A program made the translations under genes and the position numbers. Shown in pieces: positions 15,219 through 30,059 of a DNA stretch of 30,059 nt. The DNA is taken from positions 1-30,059 of the IMG/VR virus record IMGVR_UViG_3300031951_009679, one strand, 5' to 3'. Source of the stretch: a virus. The notes below the pieces were generated by a model. The model was not told the origin of the DNA. It worked only from the letters and a program-made list of their open reading frames with translations, and made no database searches. The number at the start of each line of letters is the position of its first letter. Position 1 is the first letter of the stretch.

Positions 15219-17120
15219 ATGTCTAAGATCATCGGTATCGACTTAGGTACAACCAACTCATGTGTTGCTATCCTAGAAAACAACAAACCAAAAGTAATTG
15301 AAAATAACGAAGGTGCTCGCACTACACCCAGCGTCGTTGCCTATGGCGATGAAATCCTAGTTGGCGCACCAGCTAAACGCCAAGCAGTCACAAATCCAAA
15401 GAACACAGTCTATGCGGCCAAGCGTTTAATTGGTCGTAAATTTGACGAACGTGAAGTTCAAAAAGACATCGACCTAATGCCATATGAAATCATCAAAAAT
15501 GACAATGGTGACGCATGGGTTAAAATCAAAGAAGATCGTCTAGCACCACCACAGATCTCAGCAGAAGTCTTGCGTAAAATGAAAAAGACAGCTGAAGACT
15601 ATCTTGGCCATGAAGTAACTCAAGCAGTTATTACAGTTCCAGCATACTTCAATGACAGCCAACGCCAAGCTACCAAAGACGCAGGTACTATCGCAGGCTT
15701 AGAAGTCTTACGTATCATCAACGAACCAACAGCGGCCGCATTGGCGTTTGGTGTTGACAAAGCAGACAAACGTGATCGTAAGATCGCTGTGTACGACCTA
15801 GGTGGTGGTACATTTGATATCTCAATCATTGACATCATCAACGTAGATGGTGATAAACAGTTTGAAGTACTAGCTACTAACGGTGATACATTCCTTGGTG
15901 GTGAAGACTTTGACCAACGCCTGATGGACTACATAATTGATGAGTTTATGAAAGAGTCAGGAGTTGATCTAAGCAAAGATGTTCTAGCTCTACAACGCTT
16001 AAAAGAGTCAGCTGAAAAAGCTAAAATCGAGCTATCAAGTTCACAACAAACCACAGTGAATTTACCTTACATCACTGCTGATGCTAGTGGTCCTAAACAC
16101 TTGAACGTGAATATTACACGTGCTAAGTTCGAAGGCTTAGTTGACGAACTGATTAAACGCAGTATCGAACCTTGCAAGACAGCGATGAAAGATGCTGGTG
16201 TAACAGCTGGTGATATCGACGAAGTCATCTTAGTTGGTGGGCAAACACGTATGCCTAAGGTGCAGGAAGAAGTTGAACGATTATTTGGCAAAGCTCCACG
16301 TAAAGATGTTAACCCAGATGAAGCAGTAGCAGTCGGTGCGGCTATTCAAGGTGCGGTACTTGCTGGTGATAAGACAGACGTGTTACTGTTAGACGTTACT
16401 CCATTATCATTAGGTATCGAAACACTTGGTGGTGTTATGACTAAGTTGATTAAGAAAAACACGACTATTCCTACTAAGGCTAGCCAAACATTCTCAACAG
16501 CAGAAGATAACCAACCAGCAGTTACAGTTATCGTAGCACAAGGTGAACGTGAGTTTGTTCGTGATAACAAAGTCTTAGGTCAATTTAATCTAGAAGGTAT
16601 TGAACCACAACGTCGTGGACAACCACAGATTGAAATTACACTTGACATTGATGCTAATGGTATCTTAAAAGTAAGTGCTAAAGATAAAACCACAGGCAAA
16701 GAAAACAAGATCACTATCAAAGCCAACTCAGGCCTAAGTGAAGAAGAGATTGAACAGATGGTTCGTGATGCTGAAACTAATGCAGAAGCAGATAAGAAAG
16801 CTGTTGAATTAGTACAGGCTAAGAACGTAGCAGATGCACAGATCCATGATGCTCGCAAAGAACTAGCAGACGCTAAGTCTGTTACAGAAGAAATACGTAC
16901 CCAAGTTGAAGAAGCTATCAGAGCAGTCGAAGAAGTAGTAAAAGCAGAAGATGTTGCTAAGATCCAAGAGGCGGTTGGAAAACTAGTCCAAATAACAGCT
17001 TCATTGAAACAACCCGCACCTGAAGCAGAAGTCCAACCAGGTACTACACAGGATTCAGCAGGACCAGCAGACAACGTAGTTGATGCTGAGTTCACTGAAG
17101 TTAAGAAGGATGCCGAATAA
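15219..17120 (+). CDS. dnaK: Molecular chaperone DnaK (Hsp70), full length
   Basis: A complete 633-residue Hsp70, the size of E. coli DnaK. The ATPase domain shows [13 protein letters not shown] at the N-terminus, [21 protein letters not shown] and VGGQTRMP. The linker [18 protein letters not shown] and the substrate-binding domain ([20 protein letters not shown]) follow, then a helical lid and the typical bacterial end VVDAEFTEV. Every expected part is present, so it should be active with host DnaJ and GrpE; neither is encoded in this window. A good ribosome binding site (AAAGGAGA) precedes the ATG. Hsp20 and ClpS follow in the same direction. Close similarity to bacterial DnaK suggests acquisition from a host. 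Confidence 0.98.
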
Positions 17121-17162
17121 GGGTCCTTCATTTATTTTTGCTTAACAAAAGGAGAATAAGCT

Positions 17163-17606
17163 ATGAAACAAGTATATGTAAATTCGTTAGATATCCCACA
17201 AATACAACGATTCGCTGTAGGATTTGATCGCATGTTTGATGAACTTGCTCGCACAGCAGGATCATTGAATGGTACAAACTATCCACCATACAACATCGTC
17301 CGCATCGCTGAGAATGAGTATGAGATCGAAGTTGCAGTCGCAGGCTTCACAGAAGATGAACTAGATGTTGAAATGCAAAACGGTGAATTGTTTGTGCGTG
17401 GTGAATCAAAAGCCCAAAACACACGTGTAGGTAATTATCTACATCAAGGTATCGCCGCACGTGACTTTACACGCACATTTGCTCTTGCAGACAATGTAGA
17501 AGTCAAAGGTGCTAGTGTTCGTAATGGTATCTTGACAATCAAGCTAGAAGTGTTTGTTCCAGAACACGAAAAGCCAAAAAAGATTGCAATTACCTTTGAA
17601 AAGTAA
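17163..17606 (+). CDS. Small heat-shock protein Hsp20 (alpha-crystallin/IbpA type)
   Basis: A 147-residue small heat-shock protein. It has an N-terminal arm (about 1-38, FAVGFDRMFDELAR), an alpha-crystallin domain (about 40-135, beginning YPPYNIVRIAENEYEIEVAV and containing GELFVRGES) and the conserved G-I-L-T-I strand near the end. A C-terminal I-A-I-T resembles the I-x-I anchor for oligomers. It holds unfolding proteins for DnaK, which is encoded 42 bases upstream. The ribosome binding site is AAAGGAGA. Hsp20 genes are common in T4-like phages of cyanobacteria; pairing with a phage dnaK is unusual to me. Confidence 0.95.
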   Translation: MKQVYVNSLDIPQIQRFAVGFDRMFDELARTAGSLNGTNYPPYNIVRIAENEYEIEVAVAGFTEDELDVEMQNGELFVRGESKAQNTRVGNYLHQGIAARDFTRTFALADNVEVKGASVRNGILTIKLEVFVPEHEKPKKIAITFEK

Positions 17607-17613
17607 TATAATA

Positions 17614-17647
17614 ATAGTAAGGGCTAGGTATCTGCCTAGCCCACTAT
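17614..17647 (+). other. Stable intergenic hairpin between hsp20 and clpS
   Basis: An eight-base perfect stem GGGCTAGG / CCTAGCCC (17621-17628 with 17635-17642) and a six-base loop, extended by ATAGT / ACTAT across a two-base bulge. No T-run follows, so it is probably a message-stabilising or processing structure, or a weak terminator, not a standard Rho-independent one. Confidence 0.65.
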
Positions 17648-17678
17648 TCAACTAACAATGACAATCGAAAAGGAACTT

Positions 17679-17987
17679 ATGGGCACCAAAGCAGTCACAA
17701 AAACAAAACCAACCCCAAACTTTGATCTCAAAGAACCCTTACACTACAAAGTTATCTATATCAACGACAATGTGACTACTATGGAATTTGTTGTTGAAAG
17801 TCTAGTCACCATATTCAATCATAGTCCGGAAGAAGCCGAAGCGATCACTCTTCAGATACATGAAGAAGGTAGTGGAATAGCTGCGGTATTACCATATGAA
17901 ATGGCAGAACAAAAAGGTGTCGAAGTCACACAGCTAGCACGTTCAAGAGGATATCCATTACAGATTAAATTAGAACCCACTGAATGA
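17679..17987 (+). CDS. clpS: ClpS-like adaptor (N-degron recognition)
   Basis: A 102-residue ClpS homologue with a typical disordered N-terminal tail that ends before YKVIYINDN. In E. coli ClpS the residues N34, D35, D36, M40 and H66 hold the N-terminal Leu/Phe/Tyr/Trp degron. Here they correspond to N29, D30, N31, M35 and H61, so one acidic ligand has become Asn. The rest (TMEFVVESLVTIF, LQIHEEGSGIAAV) is close to the family. ATG 17679 follows AAGGAA; ATG 17658 is in frame but has no ribosome binding site. It would feed host ClpAP with chosen proteins or block normal delivery. Its stop overlaps the next start (ATGA). Confidence 0.9.
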   Translation: MGTKAVTKTKPTPNFDLKEPLHYKVIYINDNVTTMEFVVESLVTIFNHSPEEAEAITLQIHEEGSGIAAVLPYEMAEQKGVEVTQLARSRGYPLQIKLEPTE

Positions 17988-19052: not shown

Positions 19053-19585
19053 TGGACATAATGTTAGACTTAGAAACGTTGAGCACCCGCCCAGACGCAA
19101 CTATTCTTACATTTGGTGCTTGTAAGTTTAGTCCATACAAAAAGCATGAAATCGTAGATGGTATCTATTTCCGCATCAACGTAGATGAGCAAATTACCTT
19201 AGGTCGCCATGTGGATGATAATACTGTAGCATGGTGGGCTAAACAGGCAGATGATGTCAGAGAAGAAGCCCTAGGCGAAGACAATCGTATTAGCCTAGAA
19301 CAGTTCTCACAAGAGTTAAATAGATTTATCGTAGGTTGTGATAACATTTGGGCACAGGGTCCTGTATTTGATATTGTTATATTAGAAAATCTATATCGCC
19401 AAATGGGCTTGCCTTGCCCATGGCAGTTCTGGCAGATCCGTGATAGTCGCACACTGTTAAGCACACACGGTGATCCTAGAGATAAAAACAAGGCAGGACT
19501 GCATAATGCTTTAGAAGATTGTGTCAGCCAAGCGCAAGCAGTTCAACATGTATTTGAACAATGTGGTATTACGGAGAAACGTTAA
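19052..19585 (+). CDS. DEDD-type 3'-5' exonuclease (DexA/RNase T-like)
   Basis: A 177-residue exonuclease. D6-x-E8 in MLDLETL is Exo I, the segment GPVFDIVILENLY gives Exo II, and HNALEDCVSQAQAV gives Exo III with its His and Asp five residues apart (DEDDh type). The family includes T4 DexA and the Rv2179c-like 3'-5' exoribonucleases. Either host RNA turnover or DNA end trimming is possible. It is translated from the stop of the preceding gene (TAATG) and its own stop forms TAATG with the next gene. Confidence 0.87.
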   Translation: MDIMLDLETLSTRPDATILTFGACKFSPYKKHEIVDGIYFRINVDEQITLGRHVDDNTVAWWAKQADDVREEALGEDNRISLEQFSQELNRFIVGCDNIWAQGPVFDIVILENLYRQMGLPCPWQFWQIRDSRTLLSTHGDPRDKNKAGLHNALEDCVSQAQAVQHVFEQCGITEKR

Positions 19586-19911
19586 TGCAGTTAATATTTG
19601 GTCGTGACAACGCAGAACAATTAAAAGAACGCTATACAGTCTTAGAACTAGAAACCCTAGAAAAAGATGGGGTTAGCTTAGAAGTATTCTGTTTAATCCC
19701 TGGAGAGAAAATAGGTATTCCGGATCTACCACAATTGGAAAATTGGATCAAACTACACAATGATTTCTTACATGGATATCATACCCAACAATGGAACTAT
19801 TGCCGCCAATGTATAGAACATCTAATGGGCAAATTTGGCGGTGAAGTAGATAGTTTTTATCAAGAAATCCTTAAACGCATCAATACAGCAGAAGCCCAAA
19901 AATCCAACTAA
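19585..19911 (+). CDS. Hypothetical protein, 108 residues
   Basis: It begins MQLIFGRDNAEQLKERYTVL at the TAATG junction with the exonuclease gene; an in-frame start 24 bases earlier is less likely. The first half looks strand-rich (YTVLELETLEKDGVSLEVFC), the second helical and aromatic (HNDFLHGYHTQQWNYCRQC). I do not recognise a family, although proteins of this type accompany T4-like nucleases in aquatic phages from memory. It is the last gene before the curli module's late promoter. Confidence 0.65.
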   Translation: MQLIFGRDNAEQLKERYTVLELETLEKDGVSLEVFCLIPGEKIGIPDLPQLENWIKLHNDFLHGYHTQQWNYCRQCIEHLMGKFGGEVDSFYQEILKRINTAEAQKSN

Positions 19912-19951: not shown

Positions 19952-19961
19952 GTTAAATAGT
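19952..19961 (+). promoter_or_regulatory. T4-late-like promoter of the curli module (GTTAAATAGT)
   Basis: A TAAATANT core 18 bases before the csgF ATG, followed by AAGGAG at 19965-19970. The expected leader is about 14-16 bases. It would place the whole curli-type operon in the late class. Confidence 0.62.
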
Positions 19962-19978
19962 AATAAGGAGCCGAGAAA

Positions 19979-20425
19979 ATGAAACAATGTATTTCATTCC
20001 TAATTCTGTCTTTTGCAGTTGTAGCACGAGCACAACCTCTACCTGACTACACGTTTAAAAGTCCAAGTTTTAACGGTAATGGCTACAGTGCTCATATACT
20101 TACGATTGAAAATCAGGAACATAATCGCCGAGACGCTATACAAAAAGAGATACAGGCCAAGTTAGAAAAAGAAGCTAACGAAGCTAAAAACACCAATATC
20201 GCCAAGTTTATGAATAACTTGGAATCGCGTATCTATGCCCAGATCAGCCAGAATCTAGCAACAGCTATGTTTGCAGACGGTGGTAGTAACGCTGGCACAC
20301 TAAATTTTGAAGGTAATATAATCAATTGGACTAAATCCAGCACTGAGATCACCTTGAATGTAACAGATTACATGGGCAGTGCGACCAGTATCACTATACC
20401 GTTAGGACAATTTGTGTTCCAATAA
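19979..20425 (+). CDS. csgF: CsgF-like curli assembly protein
   Basis: A 148-residue secreted protein against about 138 in E. coli. The signal peptide (MKQCISFLILSFAVVARA) is probably cut after residue 18. The mature N-terminus contains YTFKSPSFNGNGY, matching the CsgF signature F-x-N/S-P-x-F-G-G that inserts into the CsgG channel and forms its second constriction. A helical middle (NLESRIYAQISQNLA) and a beta-strand C-terminus (EITLNVTDYMGSATSITIP) also follow the family. CsgF links nucleation of amyloid to the outer-membrane pore. It is directly followed by csgG, one base after its stop. Confidence 0.88.
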   Translation: MKQCISFLILSFAVVARAQPLPDYTFKSPSFNGNGYSAHILTIENQEHNRRDAIQKEIQAKLEKEANEAKNTNIAKFMNNLESRIYAQISQNLATAMFADGGSNAGTLNFEGNIINWTKSSTEITLNVTDYMGSATSITIPLGQFVFQ

Positions 20426-20426
20426 G

Positions 20427-21431
20427 ATGAAAAAACTTGCGGCTGTGTTGATGATGTTTATATTGATAGGTTGTGCTACGACCAATAGATTCAGTACGCC
20501 AGAAAAGCCAACACAGGTCAAGAACCTAATGCAGAAAGAGTTTGACACTATACCTCCACCAGCTGGAAAACCAGTGGTAGTGGCTGTGTATAGTTTCGCT
20601 GACAAGACAGGGCAACGTCGTCCAGCGGCGACTATCGCTAACCTGTCAACAGCAGTCACACAGGGTGCAGAAAGTTTCTTGATCAAAGCCCTACAAGATG
20701 TGGGTCGAGGCACTTGGTTTACAGTAGTTGAACGTGTGGGTATTGATAGCTTGACTAAAGAGCGTCAACTGATACGTCAGATGCGCGAAGCCTACGATGG
20801 TGCTAACGCTAAACCATTGAGCCCAATGATGTTTGCTGGTGTGATCATTGAAGGTGGTATTACCGGATACGATACCAGCACTAAGAGTGGTGGCTATGCG
20901 GCACGTATGTTGGGTATAGGACCACAGACACAGTATAGTGAAGATATAGTAACAGTAAGTTTGAGATTGATTAGTGTTAATACCGGCAAAGTTTTAGCCA
21001 GTGTTAATGTGCAGAAAACGATTTACAGCACCGCAGACAGTCTAGCAGTGCTGAAATTCGTCAAAGATGGTACGCAGGCGTTTGAACTAGAAGCAGGACT
21101 CACTATAAATGAGCCCGGAACGCAAGCGGTCAAGGCAGCGATTGAAGCCGCTGTCGTTGAGCTGATCAAAGAAGGTCAGGTCAAAGGTGTATGGGACTTC
21201 AAAACAGATGACGTTGTCAGTGCCGAGCCAAGGATAGAAACCTCCCCGGCTCCTCCTACTCCCGCAGAGACTAAACCTTTGCCGGCACCGCAACCCCCAG
21301 CTGTTGACACACCTACACAGGTTGAAAAACCAAAGGCAGTAAAGAAGAAAATAGAGAAGGTCCTAGAAGTAGATAAACCTTCCATTAAGGCCCCTAGGGC
21401 CAAGGAGCAGGTAAATGTACAATTACATTAA
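20427..21431 (+). CDS. csgG: CsgG-like curli secretion channel lipoprotein, with long C-terminal extension
   Basis: A 334-residue outer-membrane lipoprotein. The lipobox is LIGC with Cys16. The core follows CsgG: PVVVAVYSFADKTGQ, WFTVVERVGIDSL with KERQLIRQ, GVIIEGGITGYDTSTKSGG, and the transmembrane hairpins around DIVTVSLRLISVNTGKVLASV. CsgG forms a nine-subunit pore through which curli subunits leave the cell. E. coli CsgG has about 277 residues; here about 65 extra residues follow the core, Pro-rich then Lys-rich (SPAPPTPAETKPLPAPQPP ... KKKIEKVLEVDKPS). These would hang on the periplasmic side. ATG 20427 is chosen because it starts the signal sequence; an ATG 15 bases earlier adds only MCSNK. 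It overlaps the next gene by 17 bases. Confidence 0.92.
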   Translation: MKKLAAVLMMFILIGCATTNRFSTPEKPTQVKNLMQKEFDTIPPPAGKPVVVAVYSFADKTGQRRPAATIANLSTAVTQGAESFLIKALQDVGRGTWFTVVERVGIDSLTKERQLIRQMREAYDGANAKPLSPMMFAGVIIEGGITGYDTSTKSGGYAARMLGIGPQTQYSEDIVTVSLRLISVNTGKVLASVNVQKTIYSTADSLAVLKFVKDGTQAFELEAGLTINEPGTQAVKAAIEAAVVELIKEGQVKGVWDFKTDDVVSAEPRIETSPAPPTPAETKPLPAPQPPAVDTPTQVEKPKAVKKKIEKVLEVDKPSIKAPRAKEQVNVQLH

Positions 21432-22203
21432 ACTATGGACAGTAATGCTAGCTTTGTTTGCGACAACAGCATTTGCAGCAGACAACAGCATCTACATCGA
21501 TCAGAGTGGTGATAATAGTACGATCGATATTACGCAAACCGGTGCAGGTAACGTGGTGCGTGGTATCCAGGGTGTTGGTACAGGTAATACTACCCGTGCT
21601 AAGATCTATGGTGACAGTAATGCTATTGATATCCAACAGATAGGTTCAACGAACGTATTGAATTTGGGTGTCAGCACTAGTGTTGCTACAGGTCGCGCAT
21701 ATGGTATTGACTTGACCTACTATGTTACTGGTAATAATGGCACTGCTACTATTAACAGCAACAACGCAGGTTCAGGTACTAGTGGTTCTAACTTCATTGA
21801 TGTTAGACAAACTGGTAACTATGCTGGTATCAACTTGAATATATTAGGCAGTAAGAACGACTTCACAGCAGTGACCAGTGGTGGTGCTAGCAATACTATC
21901 ACAGCCACTATCTCAGCTGATGAAACTGTTAATAATATTTCAATGACTGGTGGTGGTAGCAATACATTAACAAAAACTATCACAAGCAACAAAGCCACAA
22001 ACAACATCACTACACTTGGTGCTACTAATGGTATTGTGTTGACACAGTCAGGCACAGCAGGAACTAATGGTCATGCGTTTACGCTAAACCTAACAGGTTC
22101 AAGCAATACACTCAATGTAACCCAAGGTGGAACGATCGATACTACTGTTAACCTACTAAGTACAGGCAGTGGTAACACTTGGAACATTACTACAGGTAAC
22201 TAA
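21415..22203 (+). CDS. Curlin-repeat protein (CsgA/CsgB-like amyloid subunit)
   Basis: A 262-residue secreted protein. The signal peptide ends at AFA (residue 21). The mature part begins with clear curlin repeats of the form S/I-x-x-x-Q-x-G-x-x-N-x-x-x-I-x-Q: IYIDQSGDNSTIDITQTGAGN and IDIQQIGSTNVLNLG; further degenerate repeats rich in Asn, Thr, Ser and Gly follow (NFIDVRQTGNYAGINLNILG; GSSNTLNVTQGG). Such repeats stack as a beta-solenoid amyloid. There are almost no charged residues or aromatics in the repeat region. AAGGAG precedes the ATG within the end of csgG. It should be exported through the CsgG/CsgF channel encoded just upstream. Confidence 0.85.
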   Translation: MYNYIKLWTVMLALFATTAFAADNSIYIDQSGDNSTIDITQTGAGNVVRGIQGVGTGNTTRAKIYGDSNAIDIQQIGSTNVLNLGVSTSVATGRAYGIDLTYYVTGNNGTATINSNNAGSGTSGSNFIDVRQTGNYAGINLNILGSKNDFTAVTSGGASNTITATISADETVNNISMTGGGSNTLTKTITSNKATNNITTLGATNGIVLTQSGTAGTNGHAFTLNLTGSSNTLNVTQGGTIDTTVNLLSTGSGNTWNITTGN

Positions 22204-22212
22204 GGAGTCACT

Positions 22213-23328
22213 GTGAGAAACCTAATCTCAGCAGTGGCCCTTATGTTGCTGTCTAGTAGCGTCTGGGCAGCTATCGGCACGATTACTGAACAGGTAAACG
22301 CACCTCCAAGTATCGTAAGAAAGTCAGCAACACTAGCCGCAGGTAAAGGCAGCGGTGTTGAAGCTGATGACAATGTTCGTACCACAGCAGGTAAAGTTGG
22401 TATTACTTTTACTGACAATACCCGTGTGCAGATCAACGAAAATTCAAAACTCGTCATCGACAGCTTTGTCTTTGACCCCAATGCTAAGAAGAGTGCCGGT
22501 AAGTTGGCTATGAATGTAGCCCTCGGCACTGTTCGCTATACTTCAGGTAAAGTAGCACACAACAATCCAGATAGTGTAAAGATTAAAAGTCCTACTGCTA
22601 CAGTAGCAGTGCGTGGTACTGATTTTACTCTAACAGTAGATGAAATAGGACGTAGCACCATCATACTATTACCAGCCTGTCCAAAAGGTTGGATTGACCT
22701 AGAACGAGATTGTGTCACAGGCAAGATTGAAGTCATCACAGACGAAGGCAAGGTCGTCATGGATAAAGCATTCCAAGCTACACGTGTTGACAGCCGAGAA
22801 TCAAAACCATTTAAACCTACTATACTAAATCTAACAGAAGATCAGATCAACAACTTGTTAATATTAAGCCCACCTAAAGAACTACGTGAAAGTGAAGAAG
22901 ATAAACAACGTCGTCGCTTAGAGATGAAAGGTGCGCTAGATGTAGACTTCTTAAAAGAAACAGGGTTGGCTAATGCTTTTGAAAAACAAGAAAAAGAACT
23001 GTATCAGGACAAACTATCACGTAACTTCCTTGATCAAGATTTCCTAGCCAACGTATTAGACATCATCAATGCACAGTTGGCCGCACAGTTAGATTTGCTG
23101 GGTAAAACAAAAACAGGTCTACTGCCGGACTATGTGCCAACATCAGGAGTAGTAGCCGAAGTTGATGATCTACAGGTTACCTTATGTCGTGAAGGTGGAG
23201 GAGATACACAGTGTATATCAGTGCCTAAAAATCAAAACACTACCATAACACAGACACAGGGTCCTATCGAAGTTAAGAATCGTGTTAATTCTGGAGGCAA
23301 TACGTATATAAATGCTACACAGAATTAG
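22213..23328 (+). CDS. Secreted FecR-domain protein
   Basis: A 371-residue exported protein with a GTG start behind AAGGAG. The signal peptide ends near VWA (residue 19). Residues about 50-145 form a FecR domain: ADDNVRTTAGKVGITFTDNT, RVQINENSKLVIDSF, GTVRYTSGK and the typical TPTATVAVRGTDF-like segment (here SPTATVAVRGTDF). A Cys pair follows (PACPKGWIDLERDC). The remainder is charged and helical (about 215-290) and then extended, with another Cys pair (CREGGGDTQC). FecR domains in periplasmic or surface proteins often occur near secretion and adhesion genes. Between two curlin-repeat genes it may act as a scaffold, nucleator or anchor. It is overlapped by the next gene by 17 bases. Confidence 0.83.
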   Translation: MRNLISAVALMLLSSSVWAAIGTITEQVNAPPSIVRKSATLAAGKGSGVEADDNVRTTAGKVGITFTDNTRVQINENSKLVIDSFVFDPNAKKSAGKLAMNVALGTVRYTSGKVAHNNPDSVKIKSPTATVAVRGTDFTLTVDEIGRSTIILLPACPKGWIDLERDCVTGKIEVITDEGKVVMDKAFQATRVDSRESKPFKPTILNLTEDQINNLLILSPPKELRESEEDKQRRRLEMKGALDVDFLKETGLANAFEKQEKELYQDKLSRNFLDQDFLANVLDIINAQLAAQLDLLGKTKTGLLPDYVPTSGVVAEVDDLQVTLCREGGGDTQCISVPKNQNTTITQTQGPIEVKNRVNSGGNTYINATQN

Positions 23329-24502
23329 TCTATTTTTCTTATTATTGTTTAGTTTGACAGCTAATGCCGCTAACTATGTGTTGGAAGCAGATACCAGCAG
23401 TTACGGCTATGGTCCTATTAATAGTCCCAGCAGTGAGCAATATTACAATGCAGTTGATGGCAATATAGGCTCCAAGTATCTTAACTTTAATAAGACTGGA
23501 GCAGGCATTACTGTAGGATTTACTAATGCTAGGATCATGCGCAGACTAATAATGACCACAGCCAATGATGGAACTGAAAGGGATCCAATGACTATTAATA
23601 TCTACGGCAGTAGCAGTTGGAATGGTGCAAAGACACTAATACAATCAAATGTGGCAACTAATCTCAGTACTAATCGTTATACTGCTAGTACAATAGACTT
23701 TGAAAATAACACATCATATCAGTTTTATACTATAGAAGTTACTAGTGTTCGTAATCCTACCTATGCTAACAGTTTCCAATTTAGTGAAGTTACTTTTTAC
23801 TACGATACTCAATATGTAGCCAATGCTGCACCTACTTATAGCTCAGGTATAACTGCCGCACAACAAACACGTAAAACTAGTGAAACCACACAACGTACTA
23901 ATCAATCAGGTAATGAGATACAGATAGAACAGATAGGTGATAACAATAACTTTACCATACGTCAAGGTGTGAGTGTAACAGGTAAGAATCGAATTGAGTT
24001 ATACAGCAATGGTGACAACAATACCTATAATTTAAATCAAGGTTATATTACTAACGGAACAGTAAGCGCCAACGATGGTAATAATCACTATCTATACTTA
24101 AATGTCACTGGTAGCAATAACACCATAACCAAACAACAAACAGGCACTACTAATTTCAATGAAACCACAGTCAGTGGCAACACCAATAATCTGACTAATA
24201 TACAACAGGGAAATAGTCCTAAAGTATTGTTCCAGTCAGTCAGCGGTAATAACAATACCGTGACTACTAATCAGAAAGATGGTGGACAACACTATCTTGA
24301 TATCAGCCTAACTGGTAATGGACATTCAGTAAATACCACACAAGAAGGTGCTGGCAATCACGCGGCTACTATCAACTTTACTAACAGCGGTGGTGCTAGT
24401 AGCCTAAACTTAAATCAATCTGGCACCACCAATCAAACCTACAGCATACAACAGAGTTGTACTAATCCTGCAGGTTGTGCAACTACTATCTCACAACCTT
24501 AG
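23312..24502 (+). CDS. Discoidin-like plus curlin-repeat secreted protein
   Basis: A 396-residue protein with signal peptide ending TANA (residue 19). Residues about 20-170 look like a discoidin/F5-8C-type carbohydrate-binding beta-sandwich: a YNAVDGNIGSKYLNF start, the TTANDGTERDP loop, and FQFSEVTFYYD as the last strand. After a Gln/Thr linker, residues about 200-396 carry curlin repeats (GNEIQIEQIGDNNNFTIRQG, LYLNVTGSNNTITKQQTG, NLTNIQQGN, HSVNTTQEGAGN, LNLNQSGTTNQTYSIQQ). The end has a Cys pair (SCTNPAGC). It reads as an amyloid subunit with a built-in binding head. It ends four bases into the convergent small gene. Confidence 0.82.
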   Translation: MLHRISLFFLLLFSLTANAANYVLEADTSSYGYGPINSPSSEQYYNAVDGNIGSKYLNFNKTGAGITVGFTNARIMRRLIMTTANDGTERDPMTINIYGSSSWNGAKTLIQSNVATNLSTNRYTASTIDFENNTSYQFYTIEVTSVRNPTYANSFQFSEVTFYYDTQYVANAAPTYSSGITAAQQTRKTSETTQRTNQSGNEIQIEQIGDNNNFTIRQGVSVTGKNRIELYSNGDNNTYNLNQGYITNGTVSANDGNNHYLYLNVTGSNNTITKQQTGTTNFNETTVSGNTNNLTNIQQGNSPKVLFQSVSGNNNTVTTNQKDGGQHYLDISLTGNGHSVNTTQEGAGNHAATINFTNSGGASSLNLNQSGTTNQTYSIQQSCTNPAGCATTISQP

Positions 24503-24762
24503 TCAGCACTTTTTTCTGCGTAAGGTCTTTTACCTAGCATGTGTAACTGGAGTGTTTTATAATTCTTTTCAGCTTTGACATTGGTTTCTTCGAGGACTGC
24601 ATTACCTTCGTAGGTCGTGCCCTTTTCAACTGGTGCTGAGTATGGACGGCGGCCCAATTGTTGAGAATTGGTGTTAGATTTTTCGTGATCCTCTGTATGA
24701 TCTGCCCAAGCTAGACCTGCAACACTTAATGATACTGCTAATATTATACTGCTCGCTTTCAT
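24499..24762 (-). CDS. Small secreted protein with two LGxRPY motifs
   Basis: An 87-residue exported protein. The signal peptide (MKASSIILAVSLSVAGLAWA) is cut near residue 20. The mature part is hydrophilic and contains a duplicated motif, QQLGRRPYSAP at about residue 35 and HMLGKRPYAEK near the end. No family is recognised. It is the only minus-strand gene in the envelope half and converges on the curlin-repeat gene with a four-base overlap. A strong GGAGAAG ribosome binding site and a TATAAT at 24808-24813 (minus strand) support it. It could be a periplasmic inhibitor or accessory of the curli system, which is a guess. Confidence 0.72.
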   Translation of the reverse strand: MKASSIILAVSLSVAGLAWADHTEDHEKSNTNSQQLGRRPYSAPVEKGTTYEGNAVLEETNVKAEKNYKTLQLHMLGKRPYAEKSAD

Positions 24763-24940: not shown

Positions 24941-25456
24941 ATGATGCTCAAGATTAAACACAGTTTAATTATAGTATTTGCACTGCTATCTGCATGTGCT
25001 GAACATCCCGTGATCACTACTCTGACCGATCATGACTACAAGATCGATGGCAAACTCCACAAAACCGACTATGACCAGATCAAGCTCATAGTAGATCAAC
25101 ATCCACATCAACGGATTAACTTTTTTGTAAACTCGATCGGTGGAACCAGTGGAGATCTATTGATAGCCATGGATGCTGTGTATCATCACGGTGATGTGCA
25201 TTGGTATGTACAAGACTACTGTGAGAGTGCTTGTGCTGTCATGGCCCTGAGCACCCGGCACGCACAGGGAACTATACGATTACATTCATTCTATTCCAGA
25301 CATGATCATCATGTATATCCAGCACCTGGATTCAATCAGGTCATCTTAGATCACTTAGAAACGTATGGATATTCCCGCAACAACATAGACTATATGTTCC
25401 GCAGTGTGGAAGAAATGTGGCCCATTAACGTAGAAGATGGTGTTATAGTCAAATAG
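24941..25456 (+). CDS. ClpP/crotonase-fold periplasmic lipoprotein (putative serine hydrolase)
   Basis: A 171-residue lipoprotein. The signal has the lipobox LSAC with Cys19. The rest follows the ClpP/SppA-like fold of small periplasmic proteins: NSIGGTSGDLLIAMDAV (the N-S-x-G-G oxyanion segment) and YCESACAVMAL with S96 in the nucleophile position; H115 (IRLHSFY) is a candidate base. Catalytic residues are therefore present in outline, but the order and a third residue cannot be confirmed. Two ATGs (24941, 24944) are possible and no Shine-Dalgarno site precedes them. It could trim exported proteins such as the curlin subunits, by inference from location only. Confidence 0.75.
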   Translation: MMLKIKHSLIIVFALLSACAEHPVITTLTDHDYKIDGKLHKTDYDQIKLIVDQHPHQRINFFVNSIGGTSGDLLIAMDAVYHHGDVHWYVQDYCESACAVMALSTRHAQGTIRLHSFYSRHDHHVYPAPGFNQVILDHLETYGYSRNNIDYMFRSVEEMWPINVEDGVIVK

Positions 25457-25692: not shown

Positions 25693-27876
25693 ATGAAGTT
25701 AAAACGTAGCCTAATGGCACTAGCCATGGCTTCGCTGTTCACCACAGCCGAAGCGGCAAACTTAATATTAGTTGGCGATTACGTCAAGATTGGCGTAAAC
25801 GAAGCCACGGGTACACTGGGATCAGGCGGTACTACACCTCCTGGTATCTTATACGACAGCACAGGTACAGGAACATTCAACAGTGCCTACGACTACCTAA
25901 CACCAGGTAGTCCATTTGAAGGTTGGACACTTCGATTTGGTTCAACTACAGTATACAATAACAACACAGGCGTAACTGGACTCAGTGGTGGTGTGCTAAC
26001 TGGTTATGATGGCATAGCCTACAATGGTACGACCTACGACAATCGTGCAGTATGGACCAACACCACACACGCAGATTTCGATATCTTGCACGACTATAGA
26101 TTTAATAACAATCAACAGTTTGTGGACATTTCAACAGCCGTCACGGCTAAAACTACCATGACTGGTATTTACTTTGCCCGCTTCACAGATCCAGATGCAC
26201 GTGCGGCCGCTGGTGACAGTTCTGCTACAGACAACGTAGTTGGTTACGGTGCTATTCCTACAACCAATGTGGTATTCTCAGAAGCCATAGCGTCACGTTA
26301 CGCTCTAGGTTTATATTCAGCAGATACCAACGTCAATGCCGCGGTATCTAGCACATGGAGCACTGATCCTACTGTATACTATGCTGGTGGAACCAGTTAT
26401 GGTACAGGTGTGAACTTTGGACGTGGTGATCATACAATTGGTATGGGTTGGTACTTAGAATCTTTAGCCGCAGGTAGCACAGCAACATTTAGCTACGCTT
26501 ACATCTTTGGACCGAGTGCTTTCGGCGCAGCCAGCACAGCGGTCACTGATGGTGCAGGTGGCGGCACACCTGGTACAGTTCCTGGTGGTGGCACATTAGT
26601 TGACGTTGGCTCAGCAACTGATGCGGCTGGTGGTACACCTACAGTGATAAGCACTACGGCAGGAACTCCTATTGTAACAACATCAACATCAGCAACAGCA
26701 TGGGCATCAGCATTTGCTACAACTCATGCGTATGCTACAGTTCATGCAACTCCTACTATAATTAATAATAGACTAGTAGTTAGCCGTGATAATACAACGA
26801 CTACCACAGTAACAGAAACACAAACACGTGATGTTACTACTGTGACAACTACAACACCACGCACTATTACAACCTACAGTGATAGCACTACAACAACAAC
26901 CAATGGCACACCAACAAGTACTAGTGCGACTGTTACGGAGGTAGCAAGTCTGGCAGTGGCAACACCTACGACTGCTACACAGACTGCCAGTGCTAGTGTT
27001 GATACATTAGAAAATGCTATGGTACTAAACATCTACAGCCAAGAGATGAATCGTGCAGATCCTTTAAGTAGAGTTAACGTGCATGGCGAAGCGATCACTC
27101 GTCGTGTTAGTCAAGCAGTAGATGTTGCTCGTAACACTTGGGTATGGATCACAGGTAAAAGTGCTAACGGTAATGACAATCGCAGCAATGGCTTTGAAGT
27201 TGGTGCTGAACGTTTGATAAACGATACTACACTAATAGGCGTACAATACAACAAGATCAATAGCCGTATGACAGCAGTTGAACAGGGCAGTGGTAATTTT
27301 GACACAAATATGGCCAGTGTATATGCAGTTAAGAAACTCGGTCGTTGGGCAGTTAAACCCACACTAGGTTATAGCAATAGTGATTATGATATTAGTCGTG
27401 TAATTACTCTAGACGCACAGCCTAACTTTGCTGGTGAAATATATGCTAACCGTTATACTACTAAAGGCAAGTCATACTGGGCAGATCTACAGGTTATTGC
27501 TCCACAGATTTGGAAAGTTACTCCATACGCTGGTTTAACAGTTAGAAAAACTGAACTAGATGGCGGCACTGAAACAGGTACTGAAGTTACACGTTTAACC
27601 TACAATAACTATAACGACACATCAAGCCAACCATATGTTGGTGCTAGATTTGACAGTGCTACTACAGAACGTGGCGTGTTCTACAGTGTAGATGGTCGTG
27701 TTACTAAATTCAACTTAGACAGCCAATATAAGTATGGTGATACATTAATGAGCGTTAACAGTCTAGTAGGTTACAAACTTAACGATCGTAGTCAACTATG
27801 GACTGGATATCAATATCAACATGCTGATCAATACAACAATGGTATTATAAGCATTGGTGCTAAATTAGACTTTTAA
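25693..27876 (+). CDS. Autotransporter-like outer-membrane protein
   Basis: A 727-residue protein. The signal peptide ends at AEA near residue 21. Residues about 22-290 form a Gly/Thr/Asn/Tyr-rich passenger without Cys. A Thr/Ser/Val linker with long TTT runs follows (about 320-425). The last 270 residues look like an autotransporter beta-barrel: a helix leading in (AITRRVSQAVDVARNTWVW), alternating amphipathic strands (GFEVGAERLINDTTLIGVQY; WAVKPTLGYSNSDYD; PYAGLTVRKTEL) and a C-terminal GAKLDF ending in Phe, as BAM substrates do. The passenger would be displayed on the cell surface. It has its own late-type promoter and a strong terminator after it, so it is a single-gene unit. Passenger function unknown. 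Confidence 0.8.
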   Translation: MKLKRSLMALAMASLFTTAEAANLILVGDYVKIGVNEATGTLGSGGTTPPGILYDSTGTGTFNSAYDYLTPGSPFEGWTLRFGSTTVYNNNTGVTGLSGGVLTGYDGIAYNGTTYDNRAVWTNTTHADFDILHDYRFNNNQQFVDISTAVTAKTTMTGIYFARFTDPDARAAAGDSSATDNVVGYGAIPTTNVVFSEAIASRYALGLYSADTNVNAAVSSTWSTDPTVYYAGGTSYGTGVNFGRGDHTIGMGWYLESLAAGSTATFSYAYIFGPSAFGAASTAVTDGAGGGTPGTVPGGGTLVDVGSATDAAGGTPTVISTTAGTPIVTTSTSATAWASAFATTHAYATVHATPTIINNRLVVSRDNTTTTTVTETQTRDVTTVTTTTPRTITTYSDSTTTTTNGTPTSTSATVTEVASLAVATPTTATQTASASVDTLENAMVLNIYSQEMNRADPLSRVNVHGEAITRRVSQAVDVARNTWVWITGKSANGNDNRSNGFEVGAERLINDTTLIGVQYNKINSRMTAVEQGSGNFDTNMASVYAVKKLGRWAVKPTLGYSNSDYDISRVITLDAQPNFAGEIYANRYTTKGKSYWADLQVIAPQIWKVTPYAGLTVRKTELDGGTETGTEVTRLTYNNYNDTSSQPYVGARFDSATTERGVFYSVDGRVTKFNLDSQYKYGDTLMSVNSLVGYKLNDRSQLWTGYQYQHADQYNNGIISIGAKLDF

Positions 27877-29413: not shown

Positions 29414-29503
29414 ATGTTTGAACTTTTTATAGATGCCGTAAAAGATATTAGTGGTATATTAGCGGTCATGGCAGCAATAGGCATATGGTCATTTCTACCT
29501 TGA
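29414..29503 (+). CDS. 29-residue membrane peptide
   Basis: ATG 29414 lies nine bases after the porin stop, behind AGGAAA. The product MFELFIDAVKDISGILAVMA... has one hydrophobic helix (about 13-28) and a short acidic N-terminus. It overlaps the phosphoesterase gene by about 19 bases. It is too short for a family call, but start context and overlap look real. Confidence 0.5.
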   Translation: MFELFIDAVKDISGILAVMAAIGIWSFLP

Positions 29504-30059
29504 TCAAATATAAAACAATCTGCATATCTGATACCCACCTTGGCACTAAAGATGCCAAAGCCGACATACTCAATAACTTCCTCAAAAATCACACCTGCGA
29601 AAATCTATTCCTGATAGGCGATATCATCGACGGTTGGAAGATCCAACAGAATAAATGGCGATGGAAACAGAGTCACAGCAACGTTGTTCGCCGCATACTA
29701 GGCATGGCCAAACACGGAGTCAGGGTGACTTATGTGACTGGTAATCACGACGAATTCCTACGTCCATTCGTAGCACAGGTGTTTGAAATGGGCAATATAC
29801 GGATAGTCAATCAAGCAGAGTATCGCAGCATTGATGGTGACTTATTCCTAATCACACATGGTGATATGTTTGATGGCATCACGAGATTAGGCAAGTGGAT
29901 TGGATTCCTTGGAGACAACGCTTACGATTTCGTGCTTTGGATCAATACCAGATTTAATTATATCAGACATAAACTAGGATTTGGTTACTGGTCACTGAGC
30001 AAATATCTAAAACACAAGGTCAAGAAAGCCATAGGGTTCATCTATAAGTTTGAAGAAAC
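29485..30059 (+). CDS. LpxH-like metallophosphoesterase (3'-truncated by window)
   Basis: At least 191 residues are open to the window end. The motifs are CISDTHLGT (D-x-H), LIGDIIDGW (G-D-x-x-D), VTGNHDEFL (G-N-H-D) and LITHGDMFDG (the H-G-D of this group). WRWKQSHSNVVRRIL after the GD motif and the final basic helix are typical of the UDP-2,3-diacylglucosamine diphosphatase-like COG2908 proteins related to LpxH. LpxH splits UDP-diacylglucosamine in lipid A synthesis; a looser substrate is possible. ATG 29485 inside the membrane-peptide gene is the first in-frame ATG found; TTG 29500 is an alternative. Together with the porin it suggests control of the outer membrane. Confidence 0.8.
   Translation, partial: MVISTLIKYKTICISDTHLGTKDAKADILNNFLKNHTCENLFLIGDIIDGWKIQQNKWRWKQSHSNVVRRILGMAKHGVRVTYVTGNHDEFLRPFVAQVFEMGNIRIVNQAEYRSIDGDLFLITHGDMFDGITRLGKWIGFLGDNAYDFVLWINTRFNYIRHKLGFGYWSLSKYLKHKVKKAIGFIYKFEE

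Follow-up and report, generated by a model that had tools for sequence, protein, structure and literature searches.

What does a phage gain from the genes of a bacterial curli system? Proposals made since 2020 for the still open role of phage-borne curli genes range over lysis, uptake, shielding and sibling capture. Here the question is put to a viral contig, IMG/VR record IMGVR_UViG_3300031951_009679, the whole of which (30,059 bases) is the window that was analysed. In it csgF, csgG, a first curlin-repeat gene (curlin-1), a FecR-domain gene and a second curlin-repeat gene (curlin-2) form a co-directional run at 19979-24502 on the plus strand. We lean slightly toward the view that this module equips the infected cell with a curli-like fibre that is both anchored and adhesive. 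The observed anatomy of the module (gene content, gene order, swapping of the curlin-2 head, the tail of the FecR-domain protein and the conserved CsgF motif) lends this view moderate support.

The module and its pore

The original prediction, that a T4-like phage encodes a curli-type export module together with candidate substrates for it, was upheld by Pfam matches to CsgF (7.7e-16), CsgG (3e-47) and FecR (3.3e-11). Other genes of the window encode ribonucleotide reductase, S21, Hsp20, an exonuclease and virion structural proteins, the last with cyanophage and other Kyanoviridae-like proteins as nearest relatives. Judged by this gene content, the window is a T4-like, Kyanoviridae-related phage contig. 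Within the module the gaps are 1 and 9 bases and the overlaps 17 and 17; spacing below 15 bases, which had been predicted for both, therefore holds for the gaps only.

A contig from another sample (L032; related loci carry L numbers throughout) is 98-100% identical to the window per protein and runs from structural genes via DnaK into csgG. In about 20 more contigs DnaK/Hsp20/ClpS/nucleotidyltransferase/exonuclease genes precede csgF, and structural genes are joined to csg genes in contigs other than the window and L032 as well. On the curlin-2 side L055, L060 and L061 run on into an autotransporter and a phosphoesterase. Because independent contigs cross the joins, the linkage is not chimeric, and an assembly that fused a curli cluster to a phage half is ruled out. 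L061 lies in a virus contig of 356,865 bases (G006), so a jumbo-size phage carries the module too.

Wherever a viral locus carried csgF, csgG and FecR together, in 35 cases out of 35, the order was csgF-csgG-curlin-FecR. HTVC008M, a Pelagibacter phage (gp014-019), and Melnitz, a Methylophilales phage (gp99-104), have csgF-csgG-curlin-FecR-curlin-cyclase. Zaragoza-Solas (2020) described csgF and csgG next to genes that were not identified, and suggested a role in sibling capture (PMC7029224). Wittmers et al. (2022) reported CsgF-CsgG-CsgA/B-FecR-CsgA/B-adenylate cyclase in pelagiphages of two families, the cyclase being frequent and not universal (PMC9599517). The five-gene module as worded is an already described phage gene set, and the suggestion that subunits plus FecR would extend what is known of phages does not stand. 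Gene order and phage context are the same in the window as in the type VIII secretion systems of pelagiphages and methylophages (HTVC008M, Melnitz, HTVC023P-type podophages; PMC9599517), where an adenylate cyclase follows and no CsgE, CsgC or CsgD is reported. The window differs from them in several respects. Its csgG is only about 45% identical to those of HTVC008M and Melnitz over the matched part, CsgG has a Pro/Lys-rich tail, and autotransporter, porin and phosphoesterase genes follow. The curlin-2 head is a discoidin in the window, PA14 in HTVC008M and lacking in Melnitz. We found no earlier description of an exchangeable curlin-2 head, of a curlin-tailed FecR protein or of CsgF conservation at the CsgG-binding site.

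csgF (19979-20425) covers the full Pfam profile and retains the N-terminal FxxPxF motif, whose F26, P29 and F31 are invariant in 16 sequences. When the phage CsgF profile was compared with E. coli CsgF (6l7a), the alignment was confined to the N-terminal CsgG-binding peptide (E 0.008). Conservation at the stretch that would plug CsgG argues against a lost CsgG partnership. csgG (20427-21431, ATG start) encodes a predicted outer-membrane lipoprotein pore. The E. coli CsgG structure 3x2r matches it end to end (E 1.6e-46), and Cys16 of its lipobox, LIGC, is invariant. The Pro/Lys-rich C-terminal tail is an extra of about 75 residues; CsgG of L061 ends in an SH3-type domain (4.5e-5). As predicted, the order is F-G, and CsgE, CsgD and CsgC had no matches among the neighbouring genes, CsgE and CsgD being sought in a Pfam scan of the flanking genes. 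The window has three genetic hallmarks of curli (type VIII) secretion: a CsgG pore with lipobox, the CsgF binding peptide and curlin-repeat substrates.

A pore encoded by a phage could serve lysis instead. Buchholz et al. (2022) put this forward for Melnitz, in which they reported csgA and csgB to be absent (PMC9004378), although the Melnitz record itself holds two 'curlin associated repeat' genes. CsgG, gated or not, would then depolarise the cell or time host lysis like a pinholin or secretin, with the other genes accessory. Several relatives do have two small membrane proteins just 5' of csgF, and one small membrane protein of L057 weakly resembles a holin family over a short stretch (PHROG 4898, 3.8e-5 over 20 residues). 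None of the following is needed for lysis, however: CsgG retains the lipobox of an outer-membrane lipoprotein, CsgF retains its CsgG-binding peptide, and curlin subunits and FecR accompany the pore in every sufficiently long locus. The conserved part of CsgF coincides with the CsgG-binding site of the E. coli protein, which also counts against a pore repurposed for lysis. We regard a lysis pore as distinctly unlikely.

Curlin subunits and exchangeable heads

curlin-1 (21415-22203), the candidate major fibre subunit, scored 0.0012 against Curlin_rpt, slightly short of the Pfam cut-off; its orthologue in L061 has five Curlin_rpt repeats (1e-16). curlin-2 (23312-24502) is a candidate tip or minor subunit. 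It has no Pfam match of its own, and its array is homologous to arrays that do match Curlin_rpt (L003, 5.2e-8; L073, 2.9e-4). Of the predicted repeats, then, those of curlin-1 are borne out through its orthologue, and those of curlin-2 are not found by Pfam directly. The curlin strand pattern is present in both proteins. The curlin-2 array can be aligned across all copies and is 60-80% identical to those of close relatives, some of which bear unrelated heads. It was modelled as a beta-rich array with pLDDT of about 75-94 over residues 210-370, and Cys383 and Cys389 near the C-terminus are invariant.

The head of curlin-2 (23372-23830) is discoidin (F5/8 type C)-like, in agreement with the original prediction. 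It matched the discoidin-like domain of a GH92 mannosidase (7nsn; phmmer 1.5e-5) and is 41% identical to the head of L073, itself a Pfam F5_F8_type_C match (1.7e-10). Across the loci, five mutually unrelated sequence families of N-terminal head (H1-H5) sit on one family of array. H1 is PA14 (HTVC008M, L022, L027, L030, L052, L068, L070) and H5 is discoidin (window, L072, L073). Discoidin domains commonly bind glycans. PA14 domains are well known as the sugar-binding heads of bacterial adhesins (PMC6650083, PMC8092209).

On a tree of the arrays the head labels need 10 changes where the minimum is 5, a count that scored L072 as headless although it carries H5. L067 and L068 have arrays that are 95% identical in protein, with a PA14 head in L068 and an unrelated head in L067. 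At the DNA level the two are 95% identical as far as about codon 17 of curlin-2; the next 492-547 bases are unrelated, and an identity of 94% then sets in two codons ahead of the array and extends past the end of the gene. Conversely, L022 and L052 share heads that are 96% identical on arrays of just 74% identity, and L018 and L061 share heads that are 82% identical on arrays of 48%. Because L067 and L068 differ by the head alone and the other two pairs share heads on divergent arrays, the pattern is, at the level of these alignments, one of cassette exchange.

Diversified heads are again not needed for lysis. Of the uses that had been proposed for the module, a leaky outer membrane is favoured least, because the substrates and the CsgF peptide are conserved and the adhesive heads of the second substrate are diversified. 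A different alternative is that the fibres coat the infected cell as a shield against superinfection or grazing, masking receptors from competing phages, with the heads directed at different targets on the surface of the same cell. Wittmers et al. suggested such a shield for the pelagiphage system (PMC9599517). It would use the same export and fibre machinery as an adhesive fibre, and head exchange fits it about equally well; for a non-specific amyloid coat, on the other hand, exchangeable adhesive domains are superfluous. We consider a shield unlikely, at roughly one chance in five.

The FecR-domain protein and the cyclase

The FecR-domain gene (22213-23328, GTG start) encodes a secreted protein. 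In an AlphaFold2 model of moderate confidence (mean pLDDT 66.8) a signal peptide is followed by the FecR domain (about residues 20-205), a disordered linker (216-309) and a C-terminal beta module (306-370). Its final residues, 361-370 (GGNTYINATQ, 23293-23322), fit the curlin strand pattern GxxNx[AI]xxxQ. Tails were scored with a matrix derived from 176 distinct curlin strands. For 28 of 30 phage FecR proteins, and for all four curli-linked copies from GTDB contigs, the top-scoring position in the protein falls within three residues of the C-terminus. More than 5 bits was reached by the tails of 26/30 phage copies and by 0/57 FecR proteins unlinked to curli genes, a sharp contrast even though related copies are not independent trials; the control proteins also gave none (0/38 CsgG, 0/44 CsgF, 0/21 cyclases).

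Wittmers et al. labelled this gene an iron-dependent regulator (PMC9599517). No cytoplasmic anti-sigma domain or transmembrane segment precedes the FecR domain, and the protein has no other Pfam domain. Its layout, a signal peptide and then the FecR domain at about residue 20, rules out an anti-sigma regulator of the FecR/PupR type. The model resembles the periplasmic signalling domain of PupR (6ovk, 3.5e-4) and, in Foldseek, the domain that anchors an antifreeze adhesin to the cell surface (5ix9; E 0.028, probability 1.00, TMt 0.71). The protein has the look of an anchor or sensor for the fibre rather than of an iron regulator, and the published label is probably wrong. Its body may be retained in the periplasm while the strand docks on subunits or fibre as anchor, seed, cap or sensor.

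In phage relatives and in two Caulobacteraceae contigs a CHASE2 adenylate cyclase follows the FecR gene, directly or a few genes on. The FecR-CHASE2 pair also occurs without nearby curli genes in bacterial contigs of Sulfurimonas/Sulfurovum type. In L055 and L061 the phosphoesterase is followed by a GT4 glycosyltransferase and a CHASE2 cyclase. The window stops at 30059, inside the phosphoesterase and before the position of the cyclase in relatives, so the lack of a cyclase is ruled out as a genuine difference. It is a reasonable inference that the state of the fibre may be coupled to cAMP via FecR and the CHASE2 cyclase.

The linkage of FecR to this cyclase in phages and bacteria could also speak for iron or nutrient signalling, in which FecR and cyclase sense a cue and the CsgG pore imports cofactors; uptake has been proposed (PMC7029224, PMC9599517). 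Against this, the protein is without the cytoplasmic anti-sigma part, its FecR domain coming directly after the signal peptide, and it ends in a curlin strand; CsgG, moreover, is an export channel encoded together with its export substrates. We hold such signalling to be very improbable.

Two contigs of Caulobacteraceae metagenome-assembled genomes (MAGs; L078, L079) carry csgF-csgG-curlin-curlin-FecR-CHASE2 cyclase in a cellular gene neighbourhood. Their FecR protein ends in the same curlin strand as that of the phages, whereas both curlins stand before FecR. The CsgG tree, several branches of which are long, places this lineage within the radiation of the phages, beside phage L042 (100/97). 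Transfer of the module between phage and Caulobacteraceae, in either direction, is possible. Most sampled alphaproteobacterial csgFG loci have neither FecR nor cyclase. A sample of 385 genomes of the class yielded CsgF in 7, six of them above the cut-off.

Neighbouring genes and the proposed fibre

A T4-late-like promoter had been predicted ahead of the module. The canonical TATAAATA is not present before csgF, and one-mismatch versions are not enriched in the window (55 observed, 62.8 by chance), so that the prediction is only partly borne out. What does stand just 5' of csgF, at 19954-19970, is a late-promoter-like element, TAAATAGTAATA, running into the ribosome-binding site AGGAG; in near relatives it is conserved as TAAATA(G/C)TA(A/G)TAAGGAG. 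With one mismatch allowed, TAAATANTAATA has 7 matches in the window where 2.3 are expected, and the only exact one is this element.

The genes upstream of csgF encode a methyltransferase, an exonuclease and, at 19561-19911 on the plus strand, a small homologue of the C-terminal 100 or so residues of the phage CHASE2 cyclase. This is the only open reading frame of the window to match the phage-cyclase profile (E 3.3e-11, positions 566-657 of 670). It is a separate protein that matches the cyclase C-terminus only, which rules it out as a cyclase gene; it appears to be a stand-alone paralogue of that domain, and a homologue sits just upstream of csgF in near relatives too. Many relatives have pairs of one-helix membrane proteins of about 90 residues (PHROG 18771) near the curli genes, for example L057:7427-7974, L077:4373-5233 and L080:4542-5130. 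These pairs have no counterpart near the module in the window, and could be the genes labelled histidine kinases in PMC9599517. Further upstream, 15219-17987 encodes in a single run a full-length phage DnaK (Hsp70 9.6e-249), Hsp20 and a ClpS-like adaptor. The run is kept in near relatives and may be a set for taking over host chaperones and proteolysis. Neither tRNAs nor a riboswitch or other known RNA were found in the window, although such an RNA is reported near the module for Melnitz.

Downstream, a small secreted protein with a repeated LG(R/K)RPY motif and no family match is convergent with curlin-2 (24499-24762, minus strand). The gene at 24941-25456 encodes a predicted lipoprotein, which contains a ClpP-like motif (ESACA) and weakly matches one PHROG family (phrog_30575, 8e-4). 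An autotransporter beta-domain protein (25693-27876, plus strand; Pfam Autotransporter 2.7e-19) has the same place in L055, L060 and L061. A phosphate-selective porin O/P stands just 5' of the metallophosphoesterase (29485-30057, plus strand; Metallophos 4e-8), which is cut by the contig end. The adjacent metallophosphoesterase-GT4 pair (L055:14445-16183, L061:15140-17050) is also found in 15 of 25 sampled alphaproteobacterial loci. It resembles the PlcP-Agt pair by which phosphorus-starved bacteria remodel phospholipid to glycolipid.

Two known systems help to frame the module. With E. coli curli (csgBAC/csgDEFG) the window has in common the CsgG pore, the N-terminal plug peptide of CsgF and the strand pattern; it differs in lacking CsgE, CsgD and CsgC, in its F-G order and in the added FecR protein and headed subunit. 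The Marinomonas RTX antifreeze adhesin offers an analogy of design, with a FecR-like anchoring fold at the cell end (5ix9) and an extracellular PA14 lectin domain. That adhesin, however, is one giant protein secreted by type I, whereas the phage module consists of separate proteins and a curli pore, and the homology of the anchors is weak.

From the anatomy of the module we infer every functional step of an adhesive fibre. Export would proceed through CsgG, plugged with CsgF, as an outer-membrane pore. Fibre would form from curlin-1 as the bulk subunit, and curlin-2, a minor subunit, would present an exchangeable, possibly glycan-binding domain on it (discoidin here, PA14 or others in relatives). 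Anchoring or sensing would fall to the periplasmic FecR protein: its folded domain would remain in the periplasm, and its linker and C-terminal curlin strand would reach the subunits or the fibre base and dock there. The probable partner of this protein is the CHASE2 cyclase that relatives encode downstream. The most likely payoff is that infected cells adhere to neighbouring cells or particles, so that progeny would be freed near new hosts.

Several observations weigh against this fibre. Secretion of the E. coli type is much weaker without CsgE, for which the neighbouring genes hold no candidate. Phage infections have so far shown neither fibres nor aggregation nor amyloid, and Buchholz et al. 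observed no clumping in their work with Melnitz (PMC9004378). A head is not indispensable in every phage, since curlin-2 of marine relatives such as Melnitz, L040 and L051 is headless. Three of the five head families (H2, H3 and H4) have no assigned fold or ligand, giving only insignificant matches in sequence searches of the PDB, and the model of window curlin-2, its head at low confidence, found nothing significant there by Foldseek. The 5ix9 match spans only about 62 residues and is weak in sequence (profile E 0.17), and the PupR anti-sigma periplasmic domain fits the FecR model slightly better by E-value.

Two observations concern database records. Curli contigs binned in Planctomycetota and Pelagibacter MAGs (L077, L080, L110) resemble phage contigs, a contamination trap for bacterial curli surveys. 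GenBank OR851715.1, 'Salmonella phage S.Kent 1-2-1' (1,499 bases, unannotated), has a csgG-like gene that is possibly host DNA.

The exchangeable heads and the curlin-tailed FecR protein point to an anchored adhesin with defined parts: head ligand, FecR strand and CsgF plug. More tentatively, and at somewhat less than even odds, the module may be a modular adhesin in curli format, whose array gains heads by recombination and whose FecR strand seeds or anchors the fibre and couples its state to the CHASE2 cyclase. If so, the phage would decide what a dying host cell sticks to. Viruses would then alter what infected plankton cells adhere to, which would bear on encounter rates and particle formation.

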